A stretch of DNA of 64,000 nucleotides. Origin: Luteimonas sp. S4-F44 (GTDB lineage: Bacteria > Pseudomonadota > Gammaproteobacteria > Xanthomonadales > Xanthomonadaceae). The number at the start of each line of letters is the position of its first letter. The stretch's first letter is position 1. The notes under the pieces were generated by a model. That model was not told the DNA's origin and did no database searches. It was given only the letters and a program-made list of their open reading frames with translations. A program made the position numbers and the translations under genes. Shown here one piece after another: positions 36,937-56,920 of this stretch. The DNA lies in contig NZ_CP093340.1 in assembly GCF_022637415.1 (NCBI RefSeq), positions 2,914,001-2,978,000 on the forward strand. The letters are read 5' to 3'.

Positions 36937-36964
36937 CTTCTGTGGTGACGGCGATGAACCGCGC

Positions 36965-37450
36965 CTACAGCAGCGGCTGCGCGGCGACGATCACGCCATC
37001 GGCGTCCGCGGCGAGCCACTCACCCGCCAGAAGGGTCACGCCACCAAAGGTCACCGGCACATCGCGCAGGCCCTGATTCTGGCGGTCGGTCTTCAGCGGC
37101 ACGGTCCCCAGCGCCTTGACGCCGAGGTCCATGCCGGCGATCACCGCGCTGTCGCGGATCGCGCCATGCACGATCACGCCGGCCCAGCCGTTGGCGACCG
37201 CCTGCGCGGCCAGCAGGTCGCCGAGCATCGAGCGGCGGGTCGAACCGCCGCCGTCGATCACCAACACGCGCCCCTCGCCCGGTTCGGCGACCGCCTCTTT
37301 CACCCGCGAGTTGTCTTCCAGCGCGCGCACCGTGCTGATGCGGCCTGCGAACGCGCGGCGCCCACCGAAATCCCGCAGCGGGAGATCGAGCACGCGCACC
37401 GCGTCGGGGTGCGCGTCACACAGGTCGCAGGTGGAGATCACGTCGCTCAC
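36965..37450 (-). CDS. rraA: RraA family protein
   Basis: The 161-residue protein of the RraA/HMG aldolase-like family has [34 protein letters not shown] and the typical C-terminal DADGVIV. E. coli RraA inhibits RNase E, whereas other members are 4-hydroxy-4-methyl-2-oxoglutarate aldolases; the sequence length favours the RraA type. The start is GTG at 37450, overlapping the rpe stop (GTGA), so it is coupled to rpe. Confidence 0.92.
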
Positions 37451-38130
37451 GCGCGCACCGTAGTCGCGCGTGCGATCTGCGCGCGCATCGCCTCGACCAC
37501 CGCGCGGTAGTCGGATTGGCCGAAGATCGCCGAGCCGGCGACGAAGGTGTCGGCACCGGCCGCAGCGATCTGGCCGATGTTGTCGGGCTTGACGCCGCCG
37601 TCGATCTCCAGCCGGATCGGCTTGCCGGTGGCATCGATGCGCTTGCGCACGCGGCGCAGCTTGTCGAGCGTCGAGGGGATGAACGCCTGGCCGCCGAAAC
37701 CCGGATTGACCGACATCAGCAGCACCATGTCCAGGTCCTCAAGCACGTAGTCGAGCACCTCGACCGGCGTCGCCGGATTCAACACCAGGCCGGCCTGGCA
37801 GCCCTCGGCGCGGATCAGTTGGATCGTGCGGTGCACATGGCGGCTGGCCTCGGGATGGAAGCTGATCAGCGTCGCGCCGGCGCGGGCGAAGTCCGGCACG
37901 ATGCGGTCGACCGGCTCGACCATCAGGTGTACGTCGATCGGCGCGGTCACGCCGTGCTTACGCAGCGCCTCGCACACCAGCGGCCCGATCGTCAGATTCG
38001 GCACGTAATGGTTGTCCATCACGTCAAAGTGCACCCAGTCGGCACCGGCAGCGAGCACGGCGTCGACCTCCTCGCCGAGTCGGGCGAAGTTGGCGGACAG
38101 GATCGAGGGCGCGATGACGGCGGGCTGCAT
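37447..38130 (-). CDS. rpe: Ribulose-phosphate 3-epimerase
   Basis: The 227-residue TIM-barrel enzyme interconverts ribulose-5-P and xylulose-5-P. Metal-binding and catalytic segments are [56 protein letters not shown] and [11 protein letters not shown]. The ATG at 38130 has GGAG upstream. It heads a small operon with rraA. Confidence 0.97.
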
Positions 38131-38296
38131 GGATGGCTCCGGGGCGGCGGGAGGACGCGGCGGGGGCCGCAAGCCGCCATTCTACGCGGCGGCGCACGCC
38201 CGACTGCTCGCCGGGCACCGGCGTCCGGACTCGAGGGCCGCGCCTAAGGACGGCGCGGTCGCTGCGCTCACCGACGCTGCGCGTGCGCCGCGCGCC

Positions 38297-38641
38297 TCAG
38301 CGCCGGGGGCGCTTGCGACCGTCGCGGCCGCGGCGCAGCCGGTCGTAGGCGGCATTGAGCTCAGCGGCACGCGACTCGGCCTGGGCGCGCAACTCCGGCG
38401 CCGCGCCGGCCACGCGATCGGGATGGTACTGCGAGATCAGCCGGCGATAGGCCTGATCGATCTCAGTCTGGGTCGCGTCCGGGGACAGGCCGAACACCCC
38501 ATAGTCCTTCTGCTGGCGCGGCGCCAGCCAGCCCGCATCGAACGCATGCCCGATCACCAGCCCGATCACGCCGCCCGCCGGGTGGCGCAGCAGCAGCCAT
38601 CCGGCGATGAAGCCCAGCAGTTTTCCGTACCAGCGTTGCAT
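38297..38641 (-). CDS. Membrane-anchored J-domain protein (short DjlA-like)
   Basis: The 114-residue protein has an N-terminal membrane segment with the DjlA-type GVIGLVIGHAFDAG pattern near 24-37. A J domain (about 46-105) follows, with the Hsp70-stimulating HPD motif in LISQYHPDRVAG. The TerB domain that separates these two parts in DjlA is missing. It probably recruits DnaK to the inner membrane. The ATG at 38641 (MQRWYGK) was chosen because it begins at the membrane helix. Confidence 0.87.
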   Translation of the reverse strand: MQRWYGKLLGFIAGWLLLRHPAGGVIGLVIGHAFDAGWLAPRQQKDYGVFGLSPDATQTEIDQAYRRLISQYHPDRVAGAAPELRAQAESRAAELNAAYDRLRRGRDGRKRPRR

Positions 38642-38754
38642 GGCCGGCAGTGTAGCGGTTCGCCGCCGCGCGGGCGGTTGCGAGCCCCTCCTGCACCGCG
38701 ACCGCGTTCGCACTACACTTGCCGACCGTTTTGCGACGCAACCCGGACCACCCT

Positions 38755-39651
38755 GTGTCGACGACCCTGCTCGAAGCGAACCTGCCCGGCCTCCACCTGC
38801 GCCACCGCGGCAAGGTCCGCGACGTGTTCGAGCTCGGCGAGGAGCGGCTGCTGATCGTCGCCACCGACCGCCTGAGCGCGTTCGACGTCGTGCTGCCCGA
38901 CCCGATTCCCGGCAAGGGCGAGATGCTGTGCCAGATCAGCAATTTCTGGTTCGAGCAGACCGCCGCGCTGATGCCCAACCACCTGACCGGCGTGGACGTG
39001 GCCAGCGTGCTGCCCGCGGGGGTTGATCCGGCGCTCTATGCGCAGCGCGCGGTCGTGACGAAGAAGCTCAAGCCGGTGCCGGTCGAGGCGATCGCCCGCG
39101 GCTACCTGATCGGCAGCGGCTGGAAGGACTACCAGCGCACCGGTCGGGTCAGCGGCATCGCGTTGCCGGGGGACCTGCGCCAGGCTGAACAGCTGCCGCA
39201 GCCGATCTTCACCCCGTCGACGAAGGCCGCGGTCGGCGACCACGACGAGAACATCGACTTCGACACGATGGTGCGCCACATCGGTGCCGATCTCGCCGAA
39301 CAGGTCCGCGACGCGACGCTGCGCCTGTACGCGCATGCCGCCACGCATGCGGCCGAGCGCGGCATCATCCTGGCCGACACCAAGTTCGAGTTCGGTACTG
39401 ACGCCGACGGCCGCCTGTACGTGATGGACGAGATGCTCACCCCGGACTCGTCGCGCTACTGGCCGGCGGACGAGTACCAGGTCGGCACCAGCCCGCCGAG
39501 TTACGACAAGCAGATCGTGCGCGATTATCTGGAAACGCTGGACTGGAACAAGACCGCGCCGGGGCCGCGCCTGCCGGCCGAAGTCATCGCGCGCACCCGT
39601 GCACGCTACGCCGAGGCCCTGCATCGACTGGCGGGCATCGCCGTCGACTGA
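38755..39651 (+). CDS. purC: Phosphoribosylaminoimidazole-succinocarboxamide synthase
   Basis: SAICAR synthetase of purine biosynthesis, 298 residues of the longer non-E. coli type. Motifs are [58 protein letters not shown] and [12 protein letters not shown]. The start is GTG 38755 (MSTTLLE), as in Xanthomonas; a TTG at 38719 in frame is rejected. Its last 42 bp, encoding [13 protein letters not shown] plus stop, are repeated 4.1 kb downstream at 43708-43749. Confidence 0.96.
39610..39651 (+). repeat. purC 3'-tail direct repeat, copy 1
   Basis: The last 42 bp of purC match 43708-43749 at 38 of 42 positions, with the final 23 bp identical through the stop codon. Both copies read [17 protein letters not shown]. 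Confidence 0.9.
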
Positions 39652-39692
39652 CGGCGCGCTATGCTGGATGTTCCCAAAGGGGATCGGAGATC

Positions 39693-40154
39693 ATGCGTAC
39701 CGATGTCCTGGCGGCCGGCTGGCTGCTCTCGCTCTGTGCCTCAGCGGCAACGGCTGCTGGCCCGGTTACATCTTCGTCGCCACCACCCGATTCCAACTGC
39801 AGCCACGTCACCGACGCTGTCGCGCGGCTGGCGTGCTACGACCGAGCCTTCCCTCCGGCCTTCGGCGCCGTCCCGGCGGAGGCTATGCGCGTCGAGACGT
39901 TCGGTCTCCCGCCGCCACCTCGCGACGGTGACTCGACGTCGGAACGCATTGAGGCGCGCGTGGTGGCGGTGGACTACCTCGGGAACCGAAGAACGGTCGC
40001 CCTAGACAACGGTCAAGTCTGGGCATTGACCGAGGCGACCGCACGCGGCCCGCTGACACCGGGGGAAGCAGTGTCGATCCGAAAGGGCGCGATGGGCGGT
40101 TTCATGCTGTACACCCCAGCCGGCGTCTCGCTGCGCGCCCGCCGGTTGCGTTGA
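39693..40154 (+). CDS. Exported NGQVW / RLACYDR-motif protein
   Basis: The 153-residue protein has a signal peptide (about 1-22, CASAATAAG). The mature N-terminus carries HVTDAVARLACYDRAF, a motif seen in many small proteobacterial periplasmic proteins including T6SS-associated VasI/TagO. Its C-terminal half has VALDNGQVWALTE and VSIRKGAMGGFMLY, a beta-rich module widely annotated as hypothetical. The ATG at 39693 has GGAG upstream. It lies directly downstream of purC inside the segment bounded by the purC-tail repeats. No function is assigned. Confidence 0.82.
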   Translation: MRTDVLAAGWLLSLCASAATAAGPVTSSSPPPDSNCSHVTDAVARLACYDRAFPPAFGAVPAEAMRVETFGLPPPPRDGDSTSERIEARVVAVDYLGNRRTVALDNGQVWALTEATARGPLTPGEAVSIRKGAMGGFMLYTPAGVSLRARRLR

Positions 40155-40595
40155 CGTCGAAGGACAGAATCGCACCGCCGCTGAGCTCGGTGCAGGCAGC
40201 CCGGCCCAGGCTTTCTGCAGCGAAAGCCTTGGATCAGGCGCTCGCGCCGACCCCAACCGCCCCGACCGCGGGCACGAAGAAGTGCACCTGCGCCGAATTC
40301 TTACGTCGCGAGAATATCTAGCGATTGCTGGGCCAACGCGATCCGTATCCCAACGCCGCGCTGCAGCGCGGCCATCCGCTCCAAGGCCTAGCGCTGGCAT
40401 CATCACCGCAGCGCATCGGGCGCTCCTTGCCCCGCACCGCCCGTGCTGCTTTCCATTCGATATCTGGCACCGGCGTCCGCCGATTTCCACCCACGCCCCG
40501 CACATGACCATAGGGCCGTTTTGCAGTCGACACCCCGCGCAGCAGGCAGGACCGAGGGTCGACGGCGGACACCCGCCCGCCGCCGACCCCGGCAT
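40155..40595. other. Gene-poor interval within the purC-tail-bounded segment
   Basis: 441 bp without a credible gene. It has a hairpin AGGCTTTC/GAAAGCCT near 40209-40230 that may end the upstream gene. A GC-rich stem (GGTCGACGGCGG / GCCGCCGACC) near 40557-40588 sits just past the stop of the TonB receptor and is probably its terminator. Confidence 0.5.
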
Positions 40596-43460
40596 TTAGA
40601 AGCGGAAGCTCAGGCTGGTGAAGAAGAAACGTCCCGCCTGGTCGTAGCCGCCCAGCGAATTGCCATTCAGCACCAAGGTACCGCCGACCAGCGGCGGCTC
40701 CTTGTCGAACACGTTGTTGACGCCCACCGTCCACGTCGCAACGTCCCACAGTTCCACCGACCCGCTCAGATCGATGTAATTGTAGCTACCCAGCCCATTG
40801 CCGCGATTGACCAGGATCTCATCGGTCGTTCCCGACGTGCCGTCGTTGTTGACATAGTCCAACCCACCCACATAGCGCCAGCGCAGCCCTACTCCGTAGC
40901 GATCGAACGCATACCTGGCGCTTGCCACATGGCGCCACTCGGGCGCATTGCAGGCCTCGTTGACGCGACCAGCACAGTCGTAGGCCGTGGACGCGTCCTC
41001 GGCGACCGGCTGCTTGGTCTGCTCCAGTAGGTAGGTACCGACCAGCGAGGTGGTCAGTCGTCCGGGGCCGATCGGCCAGGCGTAGGAAGCCGTGAGATCG
41101 ATGCCGCTGAAGTCGAAGCTACCGAAATTGCCCAGAGTATCGACGACCAGTCCCGAGCTTTCGGGATCGCTACCCAACCACAGATCACCGGTCCTCGGAT
41201 CGCGACGGACGAGCCCGCACATCTCGGCCTGACCGCGCGCGCACAGGTCCAAAATGACCGAAGGCCCAATGCTTGTGATGGCGTCTTTGAGCTCGATCCG
41301 ATAGTAGTCGAGGCTCAAGTTCAAACCCTCGATAGGCGCTGCAGCAAACCCGATTGTCCACGTATCCGCGGTTTCCGGATCAAGATTGAGATTACCGCCT
41401 CCAAGAAGGTTGTACTGGCCTGCGGGATTGTCTGGCACGAAGCCATACTGACTCGGCGCCACTCCGGTCAACGCGCACTGCTCGGCGTTCCAGGTGGGCG
41501 CCGATCCCGCGCAGGGATCTGAACCGCCCCACAGACCGATACTCTGGTTCTCGTAGAGTTCGGTAATGCCGGCAGCCCGGATCGCCCGGTTCCAGCCCGT
41601 GCGCAACAGGAAGCGACCATCGGCAAACTTCGCGCCCAGGCCGGCCTTCCAAGTGTTCACGCCACCGGATGTGCTGTAGTCGGAGTAGCGATAGCCCAAC
41701 TCCAGATCGAGACCGTCGAGCGAACCGGTATCCGATAGCAAAGGCACCGCGCTTTCTAGAAAGAACTCGTCGACAGTCAGATCGCCAGCCACCGCTGTGG
41801 TGGGCCCTCCGAGGCCGGTGAAATTATTGGTGGCCATATTGGAATCGGGGGTGCGTTCATAAGTCTCCTGCCGGCGCTCGTAGCCCAGCACCAAGCTGAT
41901 CGGCTGGTTCGCCCACGGCAGGCCGACCCCGAGATCGCCGGACGCGTAGGCGTTGAACACCTTCATTGAGGTCACGTAGTTGACGATGCCAACGCCCTGA
42001 AGCGCTTTCGCCGCCTCTTCGGTCACCGCGTCCTGCCACACGTTGTAGAACGTGCAACCGCTGAACGATCCGGGTGGGCAGCCGAGCAAAGCGGACCGTA
42101 CGCGATCGGTGACGAAGTCGTTGATGCTTTCGTCCTTCACCGAGCTTCGGTTGTAGGTAAACGATGCATCGTAGGTCCAGTCTTCGTTGATCGCGCCGCC
42201 CAGGCCAGCCGTGATGCGATAACTCGTCGTTTCCTGGTTGGTCGCGCGTGGACCACCTTCCACGTTGCGCTTGTTGACCAGCACAGTGATTGCATCGTCG
42301 GTGATGCCCAGATCACTGCACAACGTGCCGATGATCGCATTATCGCAAGCAACGTCGACATCTGTGTTGAACGTGCCGCTCGGCGCAATCTGGGTGGCGC
42401 TTCGACGGTTGACGAACATCGCTTCCAAGTATGGCTGTACGTGTTCGTTGACCTCGTACTTGATACGCGTACCGGCCGTATATCGTGTATCCGGACGCTG
42501 GTAGTAATTCACCGGCGCGTAGTTGTAGAGCGCCCCGAATCCGGGTTGCCAGGCACTACCCGGACCTAGGTGGGCCTGAATGTTGCCTCCAGGAAGCGAT
42601 GGCGCGAGCACTGTAAAGTTCGCTGGATCGGCGCCGCTCGACCCGCCGCAGGCGGTACCGGAATCGTTCAGAGCGCAGGAGGAGTAATCTCGATCGCCCT
42701 GTAACAGTGCCTTGTTCTCACGCCACGTCGCCCAGGCGATCGCATGACCGCCTTCGCCGAAGCGCCCGCCGATCGACAGGTCGATGTTCTGCGAGATACC
42801 GTCGAAGCCGGAGCCTCCGGTTGGATAGTCGTACCCCACCTCATCCATGAGGCCACGCATGTAGTGGTTTTCGTTCTTGTGCTGGAACGCCGAGTACCCC
42901 ACATTGACGTTGACCCCCTCGAAATCGTCGTCCAGCACGAAGTTGACCACGCCTGCAACTGCGTCCGATCCGTAAACTGCCGATGCACCTCCCGAAAGGA
43001 CATCGACGCGACGCACAAGGGCCGAGGGAATGATGCTCAGATCCGGCGTCTCTCCCAGCCCTTTTGGAATACGGCGTCCGTTCACCAGCGACAGCGTGCG
43101 CTGGGCACCGAGATCGCGCAATGACGCGGTCGCGTACCCCTGAGATGGGTTGTTCTGGAAGTTATCGAAGCCGCTCGTAAACCCCAATTGCGGGTACTGA
43201 TTGACGAGATCTTCGACTTTGGTCGCGCCGGTGTAGCGGAACTCCTCGCCCTGGATCTCGGCAACCGGGCTGGCGGCCGTCATCGTCTGACTACGGATGC
43301 GCGTACCGGTCACAATCACCGCGTCCAACGTGGCGGGCGAGGTGGCTGGCGCGGATGTGGTGTCTTGAGCGGCCGCTGATATGCTGGTTGCACAGCACAC
43401 TGCAGTTGCGAGCGCTACCGAAAGACGGTGGCGCCGCGCGGAAATGGCGCGATTCGACAT
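40596..43460 (-). CDS. TonB-dependent outer-membrane receptor
   Basis: The 954-residue protein has a signal peptide (to about SISAAAQ), then a plug domain (about 45-170: LDAVIVTGTRIRS, LRDLGAQRTLSLVNGRRIP, RRVDVLSGGASAVYGSDAVAGVVNFVL). A 22-strand barrel follows, ending FFFTSLSFRF with the terminal Phe of outer-membrane proteins. Cysteines occur in extracellular-loop positions. The long-plug CUT-type look suggests an oligosaccharide, peptide or other organic substrate rather than a plain siderophore, but the ligand is unknown. The start at 43460 is favoured by GGGGAAA; 43475 is an alternative. Its base composition is lower in GC than purC. Confidence 0.93.
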   Translation of the reverse strand: MSNRAISARRHRLSVALATAVCCATSISAAAQDTTSAPATSPATLDAVIVTGTRIRSQTMTAASPVAEIQGEEFRYTGATKVEDLVNQYPQLGFTSGFDNFQNNPSQGYATASLRDLGAQRTLSLVNGRRIPKGLGETPDLSIIPSALVRRVDVLSGGASAVYGSDAVAGVVNFVLDDDFEGVNVNVGYSAFQHKNENHYMRGLMDEVGYDYPTGGSGFDGISQNIDLSIGGRFGEGGHAIAWATWRENKALLQGDRDYSSCALNDSGTACGGSSGADPANFTVLAPSLPGGNIQAHLGPGSAWQPGFGALYNYAPVNYYQRPDTRYTAGTRIKYEVNEHVQPYLEAMFVNRRSATQIAPSGTFNTDVDVACDNAIIGTLCSDLGITDDAITVLVNKRNVEGGPRATNQETTSYRITAGLGGAINEDWTYDASFTYNRSSVKDESINDFVTDRVRSALLGCPPGSFSGCTFYNVWQDAVTEEAAKALQGVGIVNYVTSMKVFNAYASGDLGVGLPWANQPISLVLGYERRQETYERTPDSNMATNNFTGLGGPTTAVAGDLTVDEFFLESAVPLLSDTGSLDGLDLELGYRYSDYSTSGGVNTWKAGLGAKFADGRFLLRTGWNRAIRAAGITELYENQSIGLWGGSDPCAGSAPTWNAEQCALTGVAPSQYGFVPDNPAGQYNLLGGGNLNLDPETADTWTIGFAAAPIEGLNLSLDYYRIELKDAITSIGPSVILDLCARGQAEMCGLVRRDPRTGDLWLGSDPESSGLVVDTLGNFGSFDFSGIDLTASYAWPIGPGRLTTSLVGTYLLEQTKQPVAEDASTAYDCAGRVNEACNAPEWRHVASARYAFDRYGVGLRWRYVGGLDYVNNDGTSGTTDEILVNRGNGLGSYNYIDLSGSVELWDVATWTVGVNNVFDKEPPLVGGTLVLNGNSLGGYDQAGRFFFTSLSFRF

Positions 43461-43915
43461 CTCGTTTTTCCCCATTCGAGTGATACGTGGTCGGACGATG
43501 GAGCCCCCCTCCCTGCGTCCCTTGACAGGCCCTTCGCGATTGGCGGCTGAACGCCACCGATGTCGAAACTACCATCAATTTTTCTCGAATAAGACAATCG
43601 CCTTGCGCAACCTGGCGAATTATGACGCATCGCACAATAATTGAACCGACCGCGCCCGGACGTGGTCAGAGCTCGTGACGAGAAGAGAGCCTGAAGTTCA
43701 TTGCGATGCCGAGGCCCTTCAGCGGTTGGCGGGCATCGCCGTCGACTGAAGGTGCATCGGCGCGCGCTGCATGACTGGCGCGGCGCCCGATGAGGAACGC
43801 GATCAGGGGGCCGTGCCCGCCTCCAGCCTTGGCCGACGCACACCGTCATGCCATCGGGCCGACGCGACGCGACCGACCCGACGGGACCGACGCGCACGCC
43901 GGCCCCGCCTTTGGC
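43461..43915. other. Upstream region of the TonB receptor with displaced purC tail
   Basis: 455 bp without a complete gene. 43560-43670 is notably AT-rich and presumably holds the receptor promoter. 43708-43749 is the second purC tail. 43850-43900 is a GACGCGAC/GACCGAC-like low-complexity stretch. Confidence 0.55.
43708..43749 (+). repeat. purC 3'-tail direct repeat, copy 2 (displaced)
   Basis: It encodes [13 protein letters not shown] plus stop in the same orientation as purC but has no upstream coding sequence. Four mismatches to 39610-39651 are clustered in the first half. Confidence 0.88.
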
Positions 43916-45922
43916 TCAGAAGTCGGTGACGAAGGCCACCAGGCCGCTGATCACGGCGGTATAGCTGATCGCGAGCATCGCCACCAGCAGCAAGACGGCC
44001 CACAGCCGCGCCGGCCAACCGCGTCCACCGCGCCAGGTCTCGCGCAGGTTCCATGCCGACGTGGCGAGCCCGGCGGCGATCGCGATGGCCGACAGCGCGC
44101 TCAGCGCCAGGATCCAACCGTTCAGGCCGTCGTTGATCCGGAAGTAGTCGGCCATGAACCAGGCGATCAAGCCGATCCAGCCCGCCCAGCTCAGCAGCAC
44201 CAGCCAGCTCGCGGCGCGGCTGGCCCGGTACGCGCGCACGGTGCGCGGCGGCCACGGCAGCGCGAGGCGATAGCGGCGCCGCACCAGGGCGCTCACCGGC
44301 CAGGCCAATGCACTGAGCAACAGCACCGCGAACGACACGCCCAGTACCGGCACCAGCCACGCGGCCGAGCGATAGCCCTCGACGCGCTGGAACAGCATGA
44401 ACGGCGAGATCGCATCGACAGAGAATGCGGTGACCTCGCCCGCCTCGACCACCGCGGCCAGCCGCTGCTTGCCATCCAGCGTGCGCCAGACGAACGGTGC
44501 CAGCGGATAGAAGCGGTTCGGCTGACCGTCGGTGCCGGGGAACACCGGGAACCCGACCGAACCGTCGCCGTAGTCCACGAGCTGCACTTGTTGGAGCTGC
44601 ATCAGACGCATGAAGCCCGATTCGCTGCGGCGCGAATTCAAGTAATGGCCCGCGGCGAGCAGACGGGCCTGCGCCTTCGCCGTCTCGATGTCGACCTGGG
44701 CCGTCTGCGGCGGCTGCGAGGGGAAGTAACGGTCGGCGAAGCCTTCGAGCAGTTCGCTGCGGATCGCGCCGGTCGCGCCGTCGGCACCGGTGCTGTTGAC
44801 CGACACGAAGACACCGACGCCCTGATCGCGGAACAGATACAGATACGAATGGAAGAAGATCGTGTCGCCGCCGTGACCGATCACCCGCTGTCCATTGATG
44901 TCGATTTCGTAAAAGCCCAGCGCCATGGTCCGCAGCGGCGGGACGAAGCGGGTCTGCGGCGTGTACATCTGCGCCGCGGTCGCGGCCTTGAGCAGCGGGG
45001 AGTCGCGGCCGGCCGCGGTCTCCAGGTGCGCGATCATGAAGCGCGCCATGTCGCTGCCGGTGGCCGCCAGGGCGCCGGCCGGCGACGACGGCACGACTTC
45101 GTAACCGCCGGGCTCGTCCGAGGCCAACTTGTAGCCGCGCGACATCAGCCCGGCCAGCTCGGCAGGCAGTGGTTGGCGGAAGCTCGAGCGGGTCATCCGC
45201 AACGGCTGCAGGACATGCCGCTCGATGTAATCGTCGAACGACTCGCCACTGACCCGCGAGACGATGTAGCCCGCCAGGCTGGTCGCGTAGTTCGAGTACG
45301 CCGGCACCGTGCCGGGCTCGAAGATCTGCCCGGGCACCCAGGACTTGAGGTAGTCGTCGAGCTCGGTCTTGCCGGCGCGCGCCTGCGCCTCGGTGGTCAT
45401 CAGATTCTTGACCCGCTCCTCCAGCCCGGAGGTGTGGGTCATCAGATGGCGCAGCGTGATCGGCATGCCGCGTGCCGGCACCCGGAAATCGAGGTAGTTG
45501 TTGATGTCGGCATCCAGATCCAGGCGCCCGGCCTCGACCTGTTGCATTACTGCCGTCCAGGTCAGCAATTTGGAGACCGAGCCCGGGCGGAACAGCGTGG
45601 CATCAGGATCCACGGGCTGGCGCTTGGCGACATCGGCGTAGCCGTAACCGCGCTTGGCGATGATCTCGCCATCCTTGACCACGGTGACCACACCCCCGGC
45701 GATGTTGCCGCGCGCCAGCGCATAGGGCATGAAGCCGTCGAGCCAGGCCGTCACGTCGGTTCCGGTCAGGACATGGGCCCCGTCGGCGGCCGGGGGTGTT
45801 TCGACAGTCGCCGGCAGCTCGGCGGCCGCCGGGGCCGCGGGCGCGGGCCCCGTCTGGGCGAACGTGGAGGTGCACAGCAGCAAACAGGCCAGCAACGATC
45901 GCACACGCAACGAACTGGGCAT
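43916..45922 (-). CDS. Class C beta-lactamase-fold serine hydrolase with C-terminal membrane domain
   Basis: The 668-residue protein has a signal peptide (1-23). Its periplasmic serine hydrolase domain (about 50-380) has catalytic SxxK at S115-K118 (SVSK), YSN at 209-211 and HGG in VIGHGGDT, the three motifs of the AmpC/PbpX/esterase family. A beta region follows, then four or five membrane helices from about residue 510 to the end. Such proteins are D-aminopeptidase-, esterase- or PBP4*-like, and the substrate is unknown. The ATG at 45922 has GAGGTG upstream. It lies just outside the displaced purC tail. Confidence 0.9.
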   Translation of the reverse strand: MPSSLRVRSLLACLLLCTSTFAQTGPAPAAPAAAELPATVETPPAADGAHVLTGTDVTAWLDGFMPYALARGNIAGGVVTVVKDGEIIAKRGYGYADVAKRQPVDPDATLFRPGSVSKLLTWTAVMQQVEAGRLDLDADINNYLDFRVPARGMPITLRHLMTHTSGLEERVKNLMTTEAQARAGKTELDDYLKSWVPGQIFEPGTVPAYSNYATSLAGYIVSRVSGESFDDYIERHVLQPLRMTRSSFRQPLPAELAGLMSRGYKLASDEPGGYEVVPSSPAGALAATGSDMARFMIAHLETAAGRDSPLLKAATAAQMYTPQTRFVPPLRTMALGFYEIDINGQRVIGHGGDTIFFHSYLYLFRDQGVGVFVSVNSTGADGATGAIRSELLEGFADRYFPSQPPQTAQVDIETAKAQARLLAAGHYLNSRRSESGFMRLMQLQQVQLVDYGDGSVGFPVFPGTDGQPNRFYPLAPFVWRTLDGKQRLAAVVEAGEVTAFSVDAISPFMLFQRVEGYRSAAWLVPVLGVSFAVLLLSALAWPVSALVRRRYRLALPWPPRTVRAYRASRAASWLVLLSWAGWIGLIAWFMADYFRINDGLNGWILALSALSAIAIAAGLATSAWNLRETWRGGRGWPARLWAVLLLVAMLAISYTAVISGLVAFVTDF

Positions 45923-46137
45923 CGGAAGCACCTCGACGGGACGGACGCAGGGATCAACCCGATGACTGTCTCGCCCCGAATCGGACAAGTCAAGCCTGAT
46001 CGGAGAATATTTTCGCTTCTGACGCACACACCCATTCACAAGAAAATGGCGTACGCAGCAGATCGACCCGGAGGACCGGCATCGGAGGCGCTGCAGTCTG
46101 CGAAGATGGGCACGCACCACAGCACCCGGGAGCCCGC

Positions 46138-46632
46138 ATGGACACGACACACGACGGCGAGAGCGTGCGCCCGATCGAGCGCTGGTTCGCGCATTACTCG
46201 GCCGATCATCGCAACGCAGCCAACCAGCGGATCCATGTCGTCGCCGTCCCGGCGATCCTGTGGAGTGTGGTGGCCCTGCTGTGGTGCCTGCCGCCGGGCC
46301 CGTTCTTCCGGCACGGCGCCTGGGCCGCACTGGCGATGTTCGGCGCCTGGCTGTTCTACCAGCGCGCGTCGCGCCCACTGGGCCTGGGCATGCTCACCCT
46401 CTTCATCGCGATGGCCGCGGCCACAGCCTGGTTGCATCGCACACTCGGCACGCCAGGGCTGCTGGCGCTGGGCGCGGCCGTGTTCGTGGTGGCATGGATC
46501 GCCCAGTTCATCGGCCACAGCCGGTTGTTCGAAGCCCGCAAGCCGAGCTTCCTGACCGACCTGCGCTATCTGCTGATCGGGCCGGCGTGGGTGTTGGCCA
46601 AGTTGTATCGGCGACTCGGCTGGCGGTACTGA
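46138..46632 (+). CDS. Mpo1-like (DUF962) membrane protein
   Basis: The 164-residue integral membrane protein has the Mpo1/YGL010w pattern. An N-terminal IERWFAHYSADHRNAANQRIH-type segment carries the conserved His, the end of helix one reads VVAVPAILWS, and the C-terminal WIAQFIGHSRLFEARKPSF holds further His/Glu. Yeast Mpo1 is an Fe2+-dependent 2-hydroxy fatty acid dioxygenase, so a fatty-acid alpha-oxidation role is inferred. The ATG at 46138 has GGGAG upstream. It converges with the SDR-like gene 7 bp away. Confidence 0.88.
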   Translation: MDTTHDGESVRPIERWFAHYSADHRNAANQRIHVVAVPAILWSVVALLWCLPPGPFFRHGAWAALAMFGAWLFYQRASRPLGLGMLTLFIAMAAATAWLHRTLGTPGLLALGAAVFVVAWIAQFIGHSRLFEARKPSFLTDLRYLLIGPAWVLAKLYRRLGWRY

Positions 46633-46639
46633 GGACTGC

Positions 46640-47500
46640 TCAGTCCGGGAACATCGACGCGTCAGGCAGGAACGGCCGCGGCGCGTAGCCAAACGCGGCC
46701 CGCGCCGGGGCGGGGTCGAACACCAGATCCTCGCGCATCCGCGCCACCGCCCCGACCGGCAATCCCTGCAACTGGCCGGCGCGATGTGCCAGCCGCAACG
46801 CCAGCCCGAACAACGGCGCAGGCAGCACGAGCAGCCGCGGCCGCGGCGTCAGCACCGCCAGCGTGCGCGCGACCATGTCGCGGTAGCGCAGCGTCTCGCC
46901 GCCGGGCAACGCGTAGGCCTGGCCGGCGGCAGCCGGCGCATCGACCGCGGCCAGCGCCGCGGCCGCGAGGTCGTCGGCGTGCACCGGCTGACGCAGGCCA
47001 CGCGCATCGGTGGGCAGCACGAACAGGCCACGACGGCGCGCAAGCGCGACCACGCGCGCCAGGTTGTGCGCGCTGCCGGGCCCGTAGATCAGCGTCGGCC
47101 GCAACAACGTCGCCGCCGCGCCACGATCGCCGGTGGCCGCGAACAGACGCGCCCCCGCCTCGCGCAGACGTGCGGCCAGCGCGCGTTCGTCGGGGTCGGC
47201 CGCGGCCTGTTTGGTCGCGTCGCTGGTCGATCCGAATGCCACCACGCGCGGGCTCTCGGGCCCTGTGGCCGCGTACCAGATCGAGAAGTGGTCCAGCGGT
47301 CCGCAACTGAAGACAGCATCGAAGCGGCCGGTCAACGCCGGCATCGCCTGGAAGCCGCCCCGGTGCCAGCGCAGACCCGGCTGCGGCGGACGGGCCTCGC
47401 GTGAGACCGCGTCGATCGACCAGCCGGCGGCGAGCAGGCGCGCCACCAGCGCGCGGCCGATCGCGCCACTGCCGCCCAACACCAGTGCATGCCTGTTCAT
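46640..47500 (-). CDS. NAD(P)-binding epimerase-like SDR protein
   Basis: The 286-residue extended-SDR-like protein has the nucleotide loop LVLGGSGAIGRALVARLLAAG at residues 6-26 and a TLIYGPGSAHNLARVV segment. It lacks an obvious YxxxK catalytic pair, so it may be an atypical SDR such as those acting on lipid-linked or quinone substrates. The ATG at 47500 starts directly at the Rossmann fold. It is divergent from the mrp operon with a 175-bp intergenic region. Confidence 0.83.
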   Translation of the reverse strand: MNRHALVLGGSGAIGRALVARLLAAGWSIDAVSREARPPQPGLRWHRGGFQAMPALTGRFDAVFSCGPLDHFSIWYAATGPESPRVVAFGSTSDATKQAAADPDERALAARLREAGARLFAATGDRGAAATLLRPTLIYGPGSAHNLARVVALARRRGLFVLPTDARGLRQPVHADDLAAAALAAVDAPAAAGQAYALPGGETLRYRDMVARTLAVLTPRPRLLVLPAPLFGLALRLAHRAGQLQGLPVGAVARMREDLVFDPAPARAAFGYAPRPFLPDASMFPD

Positions 47501-47675
47501 GTCCGCCCGCCCAGGACGGGCAGCCGGCACCAGGAAGACGCGAACGGCACGGAGCATGCTGACATCCTCACAGCATAGCCGGCAAAATCCACGAACTGTT
47601 CGCGCGCTTCGGTTAGACTGATCGGCCCTTGCGCGCTCGCCGGCTCTCTGGCCGACCGCCTCCACAAGGAGTCCG

Positions 47676-50453
47676 ATGCTCGAACTGTTGTTGGCCCTGC
47701 CCTTCGTGCTGGCGCTCGTCGTCGCCCTCTCGGCGCACGCGTCGCGTCGCACTACCGCCTGGCTCGCCGGCCTTGTGCCGTTGCTGGGACTGGCGGTATT
47801 GGCGGCAGCGGCCGGCGACGTGTTCGACGGCACGATCCTTCGCACCGGCTACGAATGGATTCCCGAGGCCGGGCTCGATTTCAGCCTGCGCATGGATGGC
47901 CTGGCTTGGACCTTCGCATTGATGGTGCTGGGCATCGGCGGGCTGGTGGTGCTCTACGGCGCCTACTACCTGTCGCCGAAGGACAGCTCGCGCCGGTTCT
48001 TCACCTATTTGCTGCTGTTCATGGGCGCGATGCTGGGCATGGTCCTGGCCGGCAACCTGCTGCTGCTGGCGGTGTTCTGGGAACTGACCTCGATCAGCTC
48101 GTTCCTGCTCATCGGGTTCTGGTCGCATCGCCAGGACGCCCGCCAGGGCGCGCGCATGGCCCTGACGATCACCGGCATGGGCGGTCTTGCGCTGCTGGGC
48201 GGCGTGCTGCTGATCGGGCGTATCGTCGGCAGCTACGACCTCGATGCGGTGCTCGCGGCCGGCGACACGATCCGCGCCAGCCACCTCTACCCCGCGGCGC
48301 TGGCCCTGGTGCTGCTGGGCGTGTTCACCAAGAGTGCGCAGTTCCCATTCCATTTCTGGCTGCCGCAGGCGATGGCTGCGCCCACGCCGGTCTCGGCCTA
48401 TCTGCACTCGGCGACGATGGTCAAAGCGGGCGTGTTCCTGCTCGCGCGGCTGCACCCGGCGCTGGCGGGCACCGACCTGTTCTTCTATGTCGTCACCGGT
48501 GTCGGTGCGACGACATTGCTGGTCGGCGCCTGGTTCGCGATCTTCCAGCACGATATTAAGGGGCTGCTGGCCTACTCGACGATCTCGCACCTGGGCCTGA
48601 TCACGCTGCTGTTCGGCCTGTCGACCGACATGGCCGTGGTCGCCGGCCTGTTCCACATCCTCAACCACGCCATGTTCAAGGCCTCGCTGTTCATGGCGGC
48701 GGGCATCATCGACCACGAGGCCGGGACCCGCGACATGCGCCGGCTCGGCAACCTCCGGCGCCTGATGCCGATGACCAGCGCCCTGGCGATCATCGCCTCG
48801 CTGGCGATGGCGGGTATTCCGCTGCTCAATGGCTTCCTGTCCAAGGAGATGTTCTTCGCCGAGGCGCTGGAGATCGGCGGGCACGGCACGGTGCGGCTGG
48901 TCATCAGCGTCGCCGCGCTGCTGGCAGGCGTGTTCGGCATCGCCTACAGCCTGCGCTTCGTGCACGACACGTTCTTCGGCAACGGGCCGCGCGCACTGGA
49001 TGTGGTACCACACGAGCCGCCGCGCTGGATGCGCATCCCGGTCGGTGTGCTCGCGGTCTTGTGCCTGGTGATCGGCATCGCGCCCGCGTTGACGGTGCAG
49101 CCGCTGCTGCGCACGATGGTCGCCGGCACGCTCGGCGATGCCGCGCCCGCGTTCAGTCTCGCGGTCTGGCACGGGGTGAACCTGCCGCTGCTGATGAGCG
49201 TGGCCAGCCTGGTGCTGGGCGTGACGCTGTACTTCGGCCTGCGCCGGTTGCTCGACTTCCACGCGGTGGTCACCCGGTCGATTGGCCGGCACGTGTTCCA
49301 CGTCAACATCGAACGCCTGTTCTCGCTGGCGCGCGCCTTCACCGCACGCGTGGCCAACGGCCGCCTGCAGCGCAGCTTGCTGGGCCTGCTGCTGGTCGCG
49401 TTGCTGCTCGCCGGCTGGCCGCTCATCGGCGAGATCGGCGCGATCCTGGCCGCCGCACCGCGCTCGCAGACCATGCCGGCGATCGGCTGGATCCTGTGGA
49501 CGCTGCTGGTGGCCGCATCGATCGGCACGGTCATCGTGCACGGCAAGCGGCTGACCGCGCTGATCGTGATCGGTGGTGTCGGCCTGACCGTGAGCCTGAT
49601 GTTCGTCTACCTGTCGGCGCCGGATCTGGCACTGACCCAGCTGCTGGTGGAGATGGTCACCATCGCGCTGATGATGATGGCGCTCAATTACCTGCCCAAG
49701 CAGTCGAAGGTCGCGCGTACGCCGCTGCGCAAGGTCCGCGACGTCGCGATCTCGCTGATCGCCGGCGGCGGACTGGCAACGCTGGCCTACGCGATGATGA
49801 TGGCGCCAGTGGACACGATCTCCGGCGAACTGCTGGTGCGCTCGCTGCCCGAGGCCTACGGACGCAACGTTGTCAACGTGATCCTGGTCGACTTCCGCGG
49901 CTTCGACACCTTCGGCGAGATCACCGTGTTCGGCACCGCGGCGCTGGTGGTGCACGCGCTGCTGCGCTGGGCGCGGCTGCAGCCCGACGAAGTGATGCCC
50001 GGCCCGCCTGTGCAACTGCCGATCGCGGCCGACCTCACTCAGTTGCTGTTCCCGCTGGCGCTCACGGTCTCGATCTACCTGTTCCTGCGAGGGCACAACG
50101 CCCCGGGCGGCGGCTTCATCGCCGGCCTGGTGTTCGCGGTGCCGGTGCTGGTGAAGTATGTCCTGCAGGGCGCGCGCGCGGTCGAGGCGACGTTCGGCTT
50201 CGACTACCTGCGCGGCATCGGCATCGGCCTGCTGCTGGCCGTCATCGGCGGCGTCGGCTCGTGGTGGTTCGGCCTTCCGTTCCTGACCAGCGGCCACATC
50301 GACCTGAACCTGCCCGTCGTGGGCCTGCTGCCGCTGGCCAGCGCCCTCGTCTTCGACACCGGCGTCTACGTAGTGGTGTTCGCCGGCACGCTGCTGATGC
50401 TCTCCACGATGGGCACGGTCAAGCAGCGCCAGGCCAGCGAGGAGGCGCCCTGA
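47676..50453 (+). CDS. mrpA: Mrp Na+/H+ antiporter subunit A with fused MnhB domain
   Basis: The 925-residue polytopic protein is the largest subunit of the multisubunit cation/proton antiporter. The proton-conducting NuoL-like core shows MLGMVLAGNLLLLAVFWELTS-type helices, KSAQFPFHFWLPQAMAAPTPVSA, SATMVKAGVFLLARL and FHILNHAMFKASLFM. Its C-terminal part (about 770-925) matches MrpB (FLRGHNAPGGGFIAGLVFA), so subunits A and B are one chain, as in group 2 Pha/Mnh systems. AAGGAG precedes ATG 47676. It heads a tightly overlapping operon through 53484. Confidence 0.95.
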   Translation: MLELLLALPFVLALVVALSAHASRRTTAWLAGLVPLLGLAVLAAAAGDVFDGTILRTGYEWIPEAGLDFSLRMDGLAWTFALMVLGIGGLVVLYGAYYLSPKDSSRRFFTYLLLFMGAMLGMVLAGNLLLLAVFWELTSISSFLLIGFWSHRQDARQGARMALTITGMGGLALLGGVLLIGRIVGSYDLDAVLAAGDTIRASHLYPAALALVLLGVFTKSAQFPFHFWLPQAMAAPTPVSAYLHSATMVKAGVFLLARLHPALAGTDLFFYVVTGVGATTLLVGAWFAIFQHDIKGLLAYSTISHLGLITLLFGLSTDMAVVAGLFHILNHAMFKASLFMAAGIIDHEAGTRDMRRLGNLRRLMPMTSALAIIASLAMAGIPLLNGFLSKEMFFAEALEIGGHGTVRLVISVAALLAGVFGIAYSLRFVHDTFFGNGPRALDVVPHEPPRWMRIPVGVLAVLCLVIGIAPALTVQPLLRTMVAGTLGDAAPAFSLAVWHGVNLPLLMSVASLVLGVTLYFGLRRLLDFHAVVTRSIGRHVFHVNIERLFSLARAFTARVANGRLQRSLLGLLLVALLLAGWPLIGEIGAILAAAPRSQTMPAIGWILWTLLVAASIGTVIVHGKRLTALIVIGGVGLTVSLMFVYLSAPDLALTQLLVEMVTIALMMMALNYLPKQSKVARTPLRKVRDVAISLIAGGGLATLAYAMMMAPVDTISGELLVRSLPEAYGRNVVNVILVDFRGFDTFGEITVFGTAALVVHALLRWARLQPDEVMPGPPVQLPIAADLTQLLFPLALTVSIYLFLRGHNAPGGGFIAGLVFAVPVLVKYVLQGARAVEATFGFDYLRGIGIGLLLAVIGGVGSWWFGLPFLTSGHIDLNLPVVGLLPLASALVFDTGVYVVVFAGTLLMLSTMGTVKQRQASEEAP

Positions 50454-50818
50454 TGGAATTCGCGATCGCCAGCGCCATCGGCGTGCTTGCCGCCTCGGGT
50501 GTGTACCTGCTGCTGCGCGCACGCACCTTCGACGTCATCCTCGGACTGACATTGCTCTCGTATGCCACCAACCTGCTGATCTTCTCGTCAGGCCGCATCG
50601 TGGTCGGCAAGCCCCCGATCCTGGGCGACGGCATTCCAGAAACGCTGGCCAGCTACACCGATCCGCTGCCGCAAGCGCTGGTGCTGACCGCCATCGTGAT
50701 CGCCTTCGCAATGACCGCGGTGACCGTGGTCATCGCGATGCGCGAGCATTCGGACCTGCGCACCGACCATGTTGACGGCGAAGAACCCGACGATGAGCAG
50801 CGCGGGGGCGGGCGATGA
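50453..50818 (+). CDS. mrpC: Mrp antiporter subunit C (NuoK-like)
   Basis: The 121-residue protein has three helices and the NuoK-type segment FDVILGLTLLSYATNLLIF, followed by DPLPQALVLTAIVIAFAMTA. The start shares a base with the mrpA stop (TGATG). It gives antiport structure to the complex; the acidic C-terminal tail is cytoplasmic. Confidence 0.94.
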   Translation: MEFAIASAIGVLAASGVYLLLRARTFDVILGLTLLSYATNLLIFSSGRIVVGKPPILGDGIPETLASYTDPLPQALVLTAIVIAFAMTAVTVVIAMREHSDLRTDHVDGEEPDDEQRGGGR

Positions 50819-52344
50819 ACCACATCGCGATCGCGCCGATCCTGGTACCGCTGATCACCGGCGCCTTGCTGCTGCTGTTGGAGCGCCGGCATCGCGCCTC
50901 GACGCTGCGGCTGTGGGCGTGGATGGGCATGGCGGTGCTGCTGGCGGTCAGCGTCGCGTTGCTGCTGCAGGTCCAGCGCGAGGAGATGCTGGTCTATCTG
51001 CTCGGCGACTGGCCTGCTCGGCTGGGCATCGCGCTGATGGTCGATCGCCTCTCGGCGATGATGGTGATGACCACCACGCTGCTCGCGATCCCGTGCCTGC
51101 TCTATGCCTGCGCCGGCTGGGACAAGCGCGCACTGCACTTCCATGCCTTGTTCCAGGTCCAGCTCGCGGGCCTCAACGGCTCGTTCCTGACCGGCGACCT
51201 GTTCAACCTGTTCGTGTTCTTCGAGGTGATGCTGATCGCCTCCTACGGTCTGCTGCTGAGCGGCGCGCGCGGCGCGCGGATCAAGGCCGGCATGCACTAC
51301 GTGGTGTTCAACATCGCGGCATCGACGGTGTTTTTGCTCGCGCTCGGACTGCTCTACGGCCTGCTGGGCACATTGAACATGGCCGAGCTGGCGGTGCGTG
51401 TGGCGCAGGTGCCGCCCGAGACCGCGCCGCTGGTTCGGGCCGGTGCCGGCTTGCTGCTGTTGGTGTTCTGCGCCAAAGCCGCGCTGTTGCCGTTGTACCT
51501 GTGGCTGCCGGAAGCCTACGCACGGGCACCGGCAGCGGTGGCGGCACTGTTCACCATCATGACCAAGGTCGGCCTCTACGCGATCCTGCGTGTTTTCACC
51601 CTGGTGTTCGGCGCCGACGCCGGCCTGCTGGCCGACCTCGCCTGGCCGTGGCTGCTGCCGGCCGGCGCAGCGACGATGGTGCTGGCCGCTCTCGGCGTGG
51701 TCGGCGCGCCGCGACTGCGCATCGGCGTGGCGTATCTGGTGCTGTTGTCGGCGGGCATGCTGTTCGTCGCGTTCGCGCTCGCCAACCGTGGCGCGATCTC
51801 CGCCGGGCTGTATTACCTGCCCCACAGCGTGTTCGTGACCGCGGCGCTGTTCCTGCTGGCCGACATCATCCAGCGCCACCGCGGCAGCACCGGTGATTAC
51901 CTGATGCCGATCGCCTCGATGCCTGGCAAGACGGTGCCGGCGCTGCTGTTCCTGATCGCGGCGATCTCGGTCACCGGCCTGCCGCCGCTGTCAGGCTTCA
52001 TCGGCAAGCTGCAACTACTCAACTCGGTTCCCGAGTCGGTTATCGGCTGGGTCTGGGCCGCGATCCTGGTCAGCAGCCTGATGGCGATCATCGGCCTGTC
52101 GCGCAGCGGCACGCGGCTGTTCTGGCGCGTCGATCCGGTTCCCGAGGGCACAGCGCCGATGCCGCTGCGCCGCTCGGAGATCGCCGCGACCATGCTGCTG
52201 CTCGGCTACGGTGTAGCGATGACGATCTTCGCCGGGCCGCTGCTGCGTTACACCGACGCGACCGCCGCACAACTGCTCGATACCGGCGCGACGGTCGAGC
52301 GCGTCGGCGGGACCACGCCGTTGATCCGGGAGCCCTCACGATGA
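50815..52344 (+). CDS. mrpD: Mrp antiporter subunit D (NuoM/N-like)
   Basis: The 509-residue protein has about 14 helices, with proton-channel signatures FNLFVFFEVMLIASYGLLL, KAALLPLYLWLPEAYARAPA and TGLPPLSGFIGKLQLL. ATG 50815 overlaps the mrpC stop by 4 bp (ATGA). Confidence 0.95.
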   Translation: MNHIAIAPILVPLITGALLLLLERRHRASTLRLWAWMGMAVLLAVSVALLLQVQREEMLVYLLGDWPARLGIALMVDRLSAMMVMTTTLLAIPCLLYACAGWDKRALHFHALFQVQLAGLNGSFLTGDLFNLFVFFEVMLIASYGLLLSGARGARIKAGMHYVVFNIAASTVFLLALGLLYGLLGTLNMAELAVRVAQVPPETAPLVRAGAGLLLLVFCAKAALLPLYLWLPEAYARAPAAVAALFTIMTKVGLYAILRVFTLVFGADAGLLADLAWPWLLPAGAATMVLAALGVVGAPRLRIGVAYLVLLSAGMLFVAFALANRGAISAGLYYLPHSVFVTAALFLLADIIQRHRGSTGDYLMPIASMPGKTVPALLFLIAAISVTGLPPLSGFIGKLQLLNSVPESVIGWVWAAILVSSLMAIIGLSRSGTRLFWRVDPVPEGTAPMPLRRSEIAATMLLLGYGVAMTIFAGPLLRYTDATAAQLLDTGATVERVGGTTPLIREPSR

Positions 52345-52829
52345 AGCGCCGTCTGCTGCCGTCGATCCCGCAGAGCCTGACGGTCTTCGCGTTCTGGCTG
52401 TTGATGGCCGAGGACTTCAGCCCGGCCAACATCGTCATGGCACTGCTGCTGGCCTGGCTGATGCCGCTGCTGGCCTCGCGGATGGAACGCGAGTTCGCCC
52501 AACTGGGCCGGCTGCGCGGCGTCTGGGCGCTCGGCGCGCGCGTGCTATGGGACATTGTAGTCGCCAACATGACCGTCGCCCGGCAGGTGCTCGGCCCCCG
52601 CGACAAGCTCAACTCCCAGTTTGTCTGGTTGCCGCTGGATCTCACCAACATCCACGGCATCTCCGCGCTGACAAGCCTGATCACGCTGACGCCCGGAACC
52701 GTGTCCGCGGAACTGTCGGAAGACCGCCGGTTTCTGTTGATCCACTGCCTGAGTACCGACGATCCCGACGCGCTGGTCGCCGAGATCAAGGATCGCTACG
52801 AGGCCCCGCTGCGGGAGATCTTCCCATGA
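52341..52829 (+). CDS. mrpE: Mrp antiporter subunit E
   Basis: The 162-residue protein has two N-terminal helices and a soluble C-terminal domain with the family segment TSLITLTPGTVSAELSED and HCLSTDDPD. It starts at ATG 52341, overlapping mrpD by 4 bp. Confidence 0.94.
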   Translation: MKRRLLPSIPQSLTVFAFWLLMAEDFSPANIVMALLLAWLMPLLASRMEREFAQLGRLRGVWALGARVLWDIVVANMTVARQVLGPRDKLNSQFVWLPLDLTNIHGISALTSLITLTPGTVSAELSEDRRFLLIHCLSTDDPDALVAEIKDRYEAPLREIFP

Positions 52830-53110
52830 ACGGCAATCCCCTGATCGAACTGGCCATCATTGCCGGGATGCACCTGGTCGGCATCGCCATGCTGTTGTCG
52901 ACGTGGCGATTGCTGCGCGGTCCCACTGCGCCCGACCGCATCCTCGCGCTCGACACGCTCTACGTCAGCTCGATCGCCCAGCTCATTCTGTTCGGCATGC
53001 TGATGGACACCGAGATCTACTTCGAGGCGGCACTGATCATCGCGATGCTCGGCTTCGTCGGTACCGTGGTGCTGAGCAAGTACGTGATCCGCCGGGACGT
53101 CGTCGAATGA
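52826..53110 (+). CDS. mrpF: Mrp antiporter subunit F
   Basis: The 94-residue, three-helix protein has RGPTAPDRILALDTLY and EAALIIAMLGFVGTVVLSKY, diagnostic of MrpF. ATG 52826 overlaps the mrpE stop by 4 bp. Confidence 0.94.
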   Translation: MNGNPLIELAIIAGMHLVGIAMLLSTWRLLRGPTAPDRILALDTLYVSSIAQLILFGMLMDTEIYFEAALIIAMLGFVGTVVLSKYVIRRDVVE

Positions 53111-53484
53111 ACATCGTCCTCGACCTCGTCATCGCGCTGTTGCTGCTGGTGGGGTGCTTCTTCACCTTGCTCGGCGCGATCGCGCTGCTCAAGCTGCGCG
53201 ACTTCTTCCAGCGTGTCCACGGCCCGGCCAAGGCCAGCACGCTGGGCGTGGGCTGCATTCTGTTCGCCTCGATCCTCTACCACTCGGTCAACGAGAGCGG
53301 CGTGCATCCGCGCGAACTGCTGATCACCGTGTTTCTGTTCCTGACCGCTCCGATCAGCGCGCACTTGATGTCGCGCGCCGCGCTGTCGCTGATGGACAAC
53401 CGGCCTCCGCACCCCAAGCGTACGCCCGATGCGAGCCAGCGCGTGGTCGACGACGACGATCCGGCCCCGCCCGAGCGCGACTGA
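53107..53484 (+). CDS. mrpG: Mrp antiporter subunit G
   Basis: The 125-residue protein has three helices with the MrpG core FTLLGAIALLKLRDFFQRVHG followed by PAKASTLGVG and TAPISAHLMSRAAL, plus an acidic, hydrophilic C-terminal tail. It starts at ATG 53107 overlapping mrpF, and is the last gene of the operon. Confidence 0.94.
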   Translation: MNIVLDLVIALLLLVGCFFTLLGAIALLKLRDFFQRVHGPAKASTLGVGCILFASILYHSVNESGVHPRELLITVFLFLTAPISAHLMSRAALSLMDNRPPHPKRTPDASQRVVDDDDPAPPERD

Positions 53485-53525
53485 CCCAGGCCAGCCGCGC
53501 CTTTCGGGCGTGAGACGACGCGCCG

Positions 53526-54188
53526 TCAGCCGCAGCCTTCGACGTAGTCGATCTGCGGCGGCACGCCGATGCGCCATTCGGTGACCTTGCCGGCCGCATC
53601 GGTCTCGAACACCAGAGCCTTGTCGCCTTCGGCGACACGCAGCGTTTGCGCACCCGCCACGTACTTGTGCGGCGAGGCTTCGACGCGCCCGCCGTAGAGA
53701 CGCTCGATCTCGGCCCGGTCCATGCCGACCTTGCCACCGCCCGGCGCGGTGTAGCCCTCGTTGCGGACGTCGATCCGGACGAAGCGATCGCCCTCCATCA
53801 TGAAACCGAGCCGGTAGTCGGTGGTGCCGATCGGCTGTGGCTTGAGGATGTAACAGCCGCCCGGCTCCGAGGGCGCCGCGTCGCCGAGGTCGTTGCCCCA
53901 GGACATGCGCACCTCCTCTTCAGTGCTGCCGAAGGCAGCCGGTCCGAAGCCGTCGAATGTGATCACGCCATCGACCACCTGCGGGATGTTCGTGCCCGGC
54001 GCCTGCGCGGGGGCCGGCGGCGTGTCGGTGCCGTCGGCCGGCATCGGCGGCGAGCCCGCGGGCGCGGGGTCGGCGACCTGCGGCGTGCGGCCATCGGCGT
54101 CGGCGCCCGAGGTCGGCGCGGACGAGCGGTCGCCGCAGGCCGACAATGCGAGCGCAAGCAAGGCGACGGCAGGCAGGGTCTGCTTCAT
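53526..54188 (-). CDS. Lipoprotein of unknown function
   Basis: The 220-residue protein has a lipobox LALSAC near residue 18, then a Pro/Ala/Gly-rich linker to about residue 70. A compact domain follows: GVITFDGFGPAAFGSTEEEV and GKVGMDRAEIERLYGGRVE. That pattern resembles periplasmic lectin-like or SH3-type small domains seen in hypothetical lipoproteins; no family was recognised. The ATG at 54188 has GGAG upstream. It converges with the mrp operon. Confidence 0.85.
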   Translation of the reverse strand: MKQTLPAVALLALALSACGDRSSAPTSGADADGRTPQVADPAPAGSPPMPADGTDTPPAPAQAPGTNIPQVVDGVITFDGFGPAAFGSTEEEVRMSWGNDLGDAAPSEPGGCYILKPQPIGTTDYRLGFMMEGDRFVRIDVRNEGYTAPGGGKVGMDRAEIERLYGGRVEASPHKYVAGAQTLRVAEGDKALVFETDAAGKVTEWRIGVPPQIDYVEGCG

Positions 54189-54349
54189 GGGCAACTCCAC
54201 GGACAATGACCGCACCAGCGTCGGCGAGCCCATGTGAATAAGCTGCGAACTGGGCGACCAACCGCGGCCGACGCACACCGGCGCGACCGAGCGGTGCCGC
54301 CGCGCTTGCCGCCCTGCATCGACCGCTGTTGCAGGCAGGCTGTCCTGCG

Positions 54350-55702: not shown

Positions 55703-55772
55703 CGCGTCACCTCGAGGATCGTTGCCATCGCCGCCACACGGTCGTCACGCGCGCCGCACGCCGGGCGCCATG

Positions 55773-56879: not shown

Positions 56880-56920
56880 GGGATACTCCGTGGCGTGACG
56901 AGGGCTTGGATGCCCGTTTA

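Follow-up and report, generated by a model that had tools for sequence, protein, structure and literature searches.

The purC locus of Luteimonas sp. S4-F44 was analysed in a 64,000-nt stretch of its genome (NZ_CP093340.1, positions 2,914,001 to 2,978,000; whole genome 3.685 Mb), referred to here as the window. purC (38755–39651, +) has a complete 3′ end and forms the left flank of a segment, 39652–43707. This segment carries a small exported protein with an NGQVW motif (39693–40154, +), a gene remnant (40361–40595, +), a TonB-dependent receptor in an intact frame (40596–43475, −) and the upstream region of the receptor, which reaches to the right end of the segment (43476–43707). A second, displaced copy of the purC tail follows at 43708–43749 (+) and runs on into downstream DNA with a serine hydrolase open reading frame (ORF) of the beta-lactamase family PF00144 (43916–46378, −) and an Mpo1-like gene (46138–46632, +). 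The true start of the hydrolase probably lies further downstream in the gene than that of the listed ORF. An earlier note on this DNA had proposed that the segment is an insertion which pushed the old tail to its far side, and had taken this trace as a sign of site-specific integration. Comparison with related genomes bears out the insertion and lends no support to the second proposal.

The displaced purC tail and the empty site

The two tail copies, 39610–39651 and 43708–43749, have the same orientation, lie 4098 bp apart from start to start and are identical at 38 of 42 bp. Their final 23 bp, including the TGA stop, are identical, and the distal copy is still readable as the C-terminus of PurC. 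Local alignment of the last 60 bases of purC with 39652–46138 gave a score of 32.0, whereas 200 shuffled versions of the tail scored at most 14.5. Weaker similarity extends the repeat to 46–53 bp. Allowing up to three mismatches, the terminal 23-mer was found at two sites in the genome, both at this locus, and a reversed-pattern control gave no site genome-wide.

Relatives were examined in a comparison set of 52 genomes of the genus, 50 of which have a PurC match (all except G018 and G036). The regions downstream of purC were analysed for 40 of the 49 other purC-positive genomes; some of these regions are short due to contig ends, and G004, G008, G011, G021, G022, G035, G038, G040 and G041 were left out. 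Tail matches in each relative region were assessed against 50 shuffles.

The nearest relatives by PurC identity are G007 (99%) and G037 (98%). In both, purC passes directly into sequence matching the window from 43750 on, as determined by blastn, and the segment 39652–43707 is absent from this point. This is the empty-site arrangement for which the earlier note had suggested looking. Window positions 37466–39656 and 43708–58250 map to stretches of one relative sequence (L031) that overlap by 46 bp, and the same was observed for L032; this overlap at the empty site of G007 and G037 is the duplicated tail. The DNA identity of the flanking genes to G007/G037 is even on both sides of the insert (91–95%). 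On the left it is 94.5/95.0% for RPE and 94.9/94.8% for purC; on the right it is 93.2/92.8% for the hydrolase, 93.1/93.9% for Mpo1, 91.3/92.0% for an NAD-epimerase and 94.9/95.0% for MrpA. In a PurC plus MrpA tree of 33 of the 41 sequences, the window clusters with G007 and G037 with a support of 1.00. G029, whose MrpA is cut by the contig stretch, is among the sequences omitted from the tree; its hydrolase also adjoins Mpo1, and the gene order of the two sisters is therefore the older one. The empty site in both sisters, the even flank identity, the tree and the arrangement in G029 together identify 39652–43707 as a derived insertion. The tail at 43708 is the copy that is continuous with the native downstream DNA.

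No purC body stands ahead of the distal tail, in agreement with the earlier note. When 43500–43760 was searched against the 52 genomes, the best pre-tail match listed had an E value of 0.02, and no purC similarity was found before about 43703. Of 41 purC tails compared, those of the window, G007 and G037 alone have the exact 18-base ending GGCATCGCCGTCGACTGA, which makes both window copies clade-type; G043 carries this ending with one mismatch. All four differences between the copies fall within the first 19 bases (chance 0.035). Compared with G007/G037, the displaced tail shows three differences, all of them synonymous (chance 0.02–0.06), and so looks as if it had served as a working purC end until its displacement. 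The proximal tail differs from G007/G037 by a Q to H exchange and one synonymous change. These patterns suggest, if only mildly, that before they came together each tail was the functional end of purC in its own genome, the two genomes being closely related.

Collinearity with G007/G037 is also interrupted nearby, at 36942–37465, where the relatives hold a shorter, unmatched stretch. This second window-specific stretch contains a 161-aa ORF (36965–37450, −), which we take to resemble RraA.

The cargo module and the purC–Mpo1 slot

The insertion carries a version of a module with the order small exported protein, TPR/2OG-Fe(II) oxygenase and convergent TonB receptor. In the window the exported protein, encoded by the first module gene, has 153 aa and a weak TOBE_2 match, and the receptor has 959 aa and matches the Plug domain. 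Members of the close receptor family were found in 24 of the 52 genomes (E ≤ 4e-277; the next group starts at 3e-102). The small exported protein accompanies it in 23 of these 24 genomes, G001 lacking it, with three more weak matches elsewhere. A TPR protein with a 2OG-Fe(II) oxygenase domain (PF13759) lies between the two in 22 of the 24 loci; the match is weak and partial in G044 and partial in a few others, and G001 and the window have none. Mechanical ORF clustering places the module at a minimum of three chromosomal places: a locus whose neighbouring genes are common to at least ten genomes, a second found in five genomes (G021, G015, G009, G051 and G034) and the purC locus. Carriers at the purC locus are the window, G016 (Luteimonas huabeiensis HB2) and G024, and G001 has the receptor alone, past Mpo1 plus one more gene. 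In a wider sample of the family, the receptor (E ≤ 1e-250) was found in 37 of 297 genomes and 14 of 54 genera. The module carried by the insertion counts as accessory in the genus.

The interval that holds the oxygenase in G016 is about 1.4 kb shorter in the window. The blastn alignment with G016 starts at 40361 and continues into the receptor with 75% identity, and the one with G024 gives the oxygenase part as a separate piece (65%, E 2e-10). Pieces obtained by tblastn are spread over more than one frame. Because the alignment covers only the 3′ end of the oxygenase gene and the frames are broken, 40361–40595 is a remnant, and the middle gene of the module is, as judged from these alignments, decayed in the window. 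Going by the family names, the cassette would import some substrate via the receptor, the oxygenase kept by most relatives being missing here.

Mpo1 follows purC in 38 of the 40 downstream regions, at a spacing that is shortest in G031 (a few bases) and longest in G029 (about 12 kb); no Mpo1 match was found in the regions of G048 and G015. What lies between the two genes varies. Several ORFs are present in both G006 and G029 and two in G020, all picked by codon-position GC content, G016 and G024 carry the receptor module without the hydrolase, and G007 and G037 carry the hydrolase. From their translations, we take the ORFs of G006 to be an export-type set of a peptidase/ABC transporter, an insulinase-type peptidase and an HlyD-type protein. 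The purC–Mpo1 interval is a variable slot in Luteimonas, with the conserved flanking genes and the differing cargo that characterize integrase-less hotspots. The slot and the module, which occupies several genomic places, are traceable across Luteimonas species.

No displaced purC tail was found beyond the receptor in G016 or G024, nor a tail comparable to that of the window among the 40 regions examined. Two of these regions scored slightly above their own shuffle maximum and three tied with it, none near 32.0. The G016 region (L066) scored 18.0 against a maximum of 15.5, with the match inside the TPR gene. A faint likeness to the purC tail about 36 bp behind purC in G025 (L054; 13.5 vs 13.0) is probably due to chance.

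The receptor is 97% identical to a protein of Luteimonas sp. TWI1416, and the next matches reach at most 79%. The small exported protein is 80% identical to a protein of TWI662, whose annotated start MLD agrees with ATGCTGGAT at window position 39661, there in another frame. Both strains are known here through single proteins. Among the best 120 matches of a clustered list, with identities of 99, 90 and 88 and then down to 61%, no intact TPR/2OG gene was named for the TWI strains; this weakly suggests that the decay of the oxygenase may be shared with them. In the receptor tree the window groups with G016, G024 and G001 (support 100), whereas the species groups with G007 and G037. Receptor identity is 78.7% for window–G016 and 76.2% for G001–G016, the opposite order to the core genes, which give 75.2 vs 82.9% (MrpA), 80.5 vs 89.6% (PurC) and 71.0 vs 78.8% (Mpo1). 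A horizontal origin of the receptor seems likely. Base composition is only suggestive of foreign origin. The AT-richer DNA between the tails, also described in the earlier note, has a GC content of 60.7% in the receptor and 55.6% in 43476–43707, compared with 66.2% in the window. At third codon positions the receptor has a GC content (GC3) of 73.5, the lowest of 24, with related genomes at 79–82.

Integrase searches and the route of insertion

The earlier note saw no integrase in the insert, and none was found in our search of 39652–43707. The genome has three PF00589 genes, at 480249, 588145 and 3026670, of which the first two are high-scoring and presumably Xer-like. The only one that is not Xer-like (3026670–3027179) lies outside the window, about 69 kb beyond the insert. 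Among the genus places listed, none has PF00589 within 20 kb of purC, the nearest listed being about 42 kb away (G017). In 41 sequences, a tyrosine-recombinase motif scan without a positive control gave no match in the DNA behind purC, which was covered for up to 13 kb. The exact 23-base tail does not occur in viral contigs, and the receptor was not detected there with six exact peptide patterns, which find close relatives only. No plasmid carrier of the segment was found (11 records with short plug-region matches, none covering 80% of the query) and no phage carrier (one record with a short match to the receptor plug region). Carriage by a phage or plasmid was rejected on these grounds, as such matches are confined to the plug region and the exact tail is missing from viral contigs.

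We favour, with a probability of about 0.6, the view that host recombination, with the purC 3′ end as its anchor, exchanged a cassette at a core-gene slot. The window's lineage would have started from the order purC–hydrolase–Mpo1, which the sisters kept, and would have gained a 4-kb cassette of the kind found behind purC in G016 and G024. The incoming DNA could have paired with purC at one end, by homology, and been joined illegitimately within the native tail at the other; alternatively, it could have circularised and entered through a single crossover in the tail. By either route, a complete purC end would be retained and a second tail stranded past the insert. One-sided homologous integration and circularisation with a single crossover of incoming DNA are described in PMC3240628, and Oliveira et al. 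2017 (PMC5635113) describe hotspots that lack an integrase and whose flanking core genes recombine. Anchored in purC, host recombination by either route needs nothing further. A ComEC-type competence protein encoded in the genome also counts for it. Because both tails carry the ending of the window's clade, the donor was probably a close relative of the window's species. A direct transfer of purC together with the module from a G016-like species was considered and rejected, given the restriction of the exact ending GGCATCGCCGTCGACTGA to the window and its two sisters.

Several observations weigh against host recombination. The carriers at the purC site, G016 and G024, have different purC endings, and a donor with the clade ending is therefore an assumption and was not observed. 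For a RecA-type crossover, 42 bp of matching sequence is short, and repeats at both ends would also be left by att sites. A mosaic change of identity along purC that would mark a crossover was looked for against 11 relatives, which are not a population sample, and none was seen. The branches that would decide between G016/G024 and G001 as the source of the receptor closest to that of the window have a support of only 53–59. Additionally, low GC as proof of foreign origin is weakened by other receptors. Among the other receptor ORFs of the same genome, one is lower (58–59%) and one similar (about 62–63%), in total GC, which alone was used since the frames were chosen mechanically and several GC3 values came from a wrong frame; the receptor family itself has 61–63% GC in several related genomes.

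The main rival is that att-like tails were acted on in trans by a recombinase, which would leave much the same trace. In its general form, the tails would be the attL and attR sites of an integrative element, non-autonomous or decayed, whose tyrosine recombinase targeted the purC 3′ end, the integrase being lost or provided in trans. The direct repeats of a gene 3′ end at both borders, the intact gene, the native tail on the far side and the clustering of all copy differences in the first 19 bases of the repeat are in line with this. On the other hand, no PF00589 gene lies in or near the segment or, among the genus places listed, close to purC; the nearest PF00589 gene of the genome is about 69 kb away, although a partner from outside the sampled genomes may have supplied a recombinase. 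No such tails accompany the module at its other loci or behind purC in G016 and G024. The earlier note had suggested searching for further elements with this attachment-like tail; none was found, nor an attP or an autonomous partner with the same repeat, in the 40 relatives or, for the exact 23-mer, in viral contigs. We regard such an element as unlikely, though only as the less likely reading, since the opposing evidence consists of absences. Of the two options given in the earlier note, transfer by homologous tails thus fits better than a non-autonomous or decayed element. Somewhat more doubtful is the specific form of a minimal element, in which a receptor module between purC-tail attachment sites was mobilised by an integrase that an unsampled Luteimonas element supplied.

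The events may also have had the reverse order, with the cassette present first and a later fragment bringing purC tail, hydrolase and Mpo1 from a G007-like relative. This explains the same anatomy, and G016 and G024 have purC, module and Mpo1 without the hydrolase; G007, G037 and G029, however, have the hydrolase beside Mpo1 and no module at purC, and the right-hand DNA is no nearer to G007/G037 than the left-hand DNA, which makes this order improbable. We consider it very improbable that the module stood behind purC in the genus ancestor and was lost in most lineages. The shared place in G016, G024 and the window and a receptor identity to G016 (79%) resembling that of core genes (75–81%) would suit such retention, but it requires losses in G007, G037, G029 and most of the 40 relatives, leaves the second tail unexplained and does not account for receptor distances that depart from core-gene distances. 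The earlier note raised the possibility that an ancient tandem paralogue of purC left the distal tail as its end. Its readability as a PurC C-terminus would suit this, but the idea is already contradicted: no purC similarity precedes the tail, each of the 50 genomes has a single purC match, and G007 and G037 have a single tail here. Hardly any weight is given to a transposon with a long target-site duplication. Direct repeats stand at both borders, but usual target-site duplications are far shorter than 42 bp, no inverted repeats join the insert ends (eight pairs listed) and no transposase was seen among the segment genes.

Comparison with known systems

Keyword searches of the literature returned no earlier report of this locus. 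The closest resemblance to a site-specific system is to islands of the SGI1 type. SGI1 integrates at the 3′ end of trmE (PMC8409611). Such islands share with the purC locus of the window an intact gene end, direct repeats at the borders and the old end on the far side. They differ from the window segment, which has no integrase and for which no autonomous partner with the same repeat was found. Cis-mobilizable elements, as we understand the definition, are alike in their borders, and here too no partner was found for the window segment. Our data advise caution, as a displaced gene tail alone is no proof of site-specific integration. If an att element moved in trans were the true explanation, the purC 3′ end would be a new integration site in the family.

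The integrase-less hotspots covered by the relevant part of PMC5635113 are alike in having variable cargo between conserved genes, no recombinase found and an exchange that flank recombination can explain. They differ in that double homologous recombination takes place at both flanks and no displaced gene tail is left, whereas one border of the window segment lies inside the purC tail itself. Homology-facilitated illegitimate recombination and circle single crossover, in the experiments of PMC3240628 covered here, yield the same anatomy including the direct repeat; those experiments used marker DNA, whereas the event in the window is deduced from sequence. Set beside these systems, the insertion is real and well polarised, with an unusually legible scar, and is ordinary in kind, the recombination step being the part that we infer. 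It offers a clear case of a receptor cassette in a core-gene slot without a detectable integrase and with the empty site preserved in two sisters.

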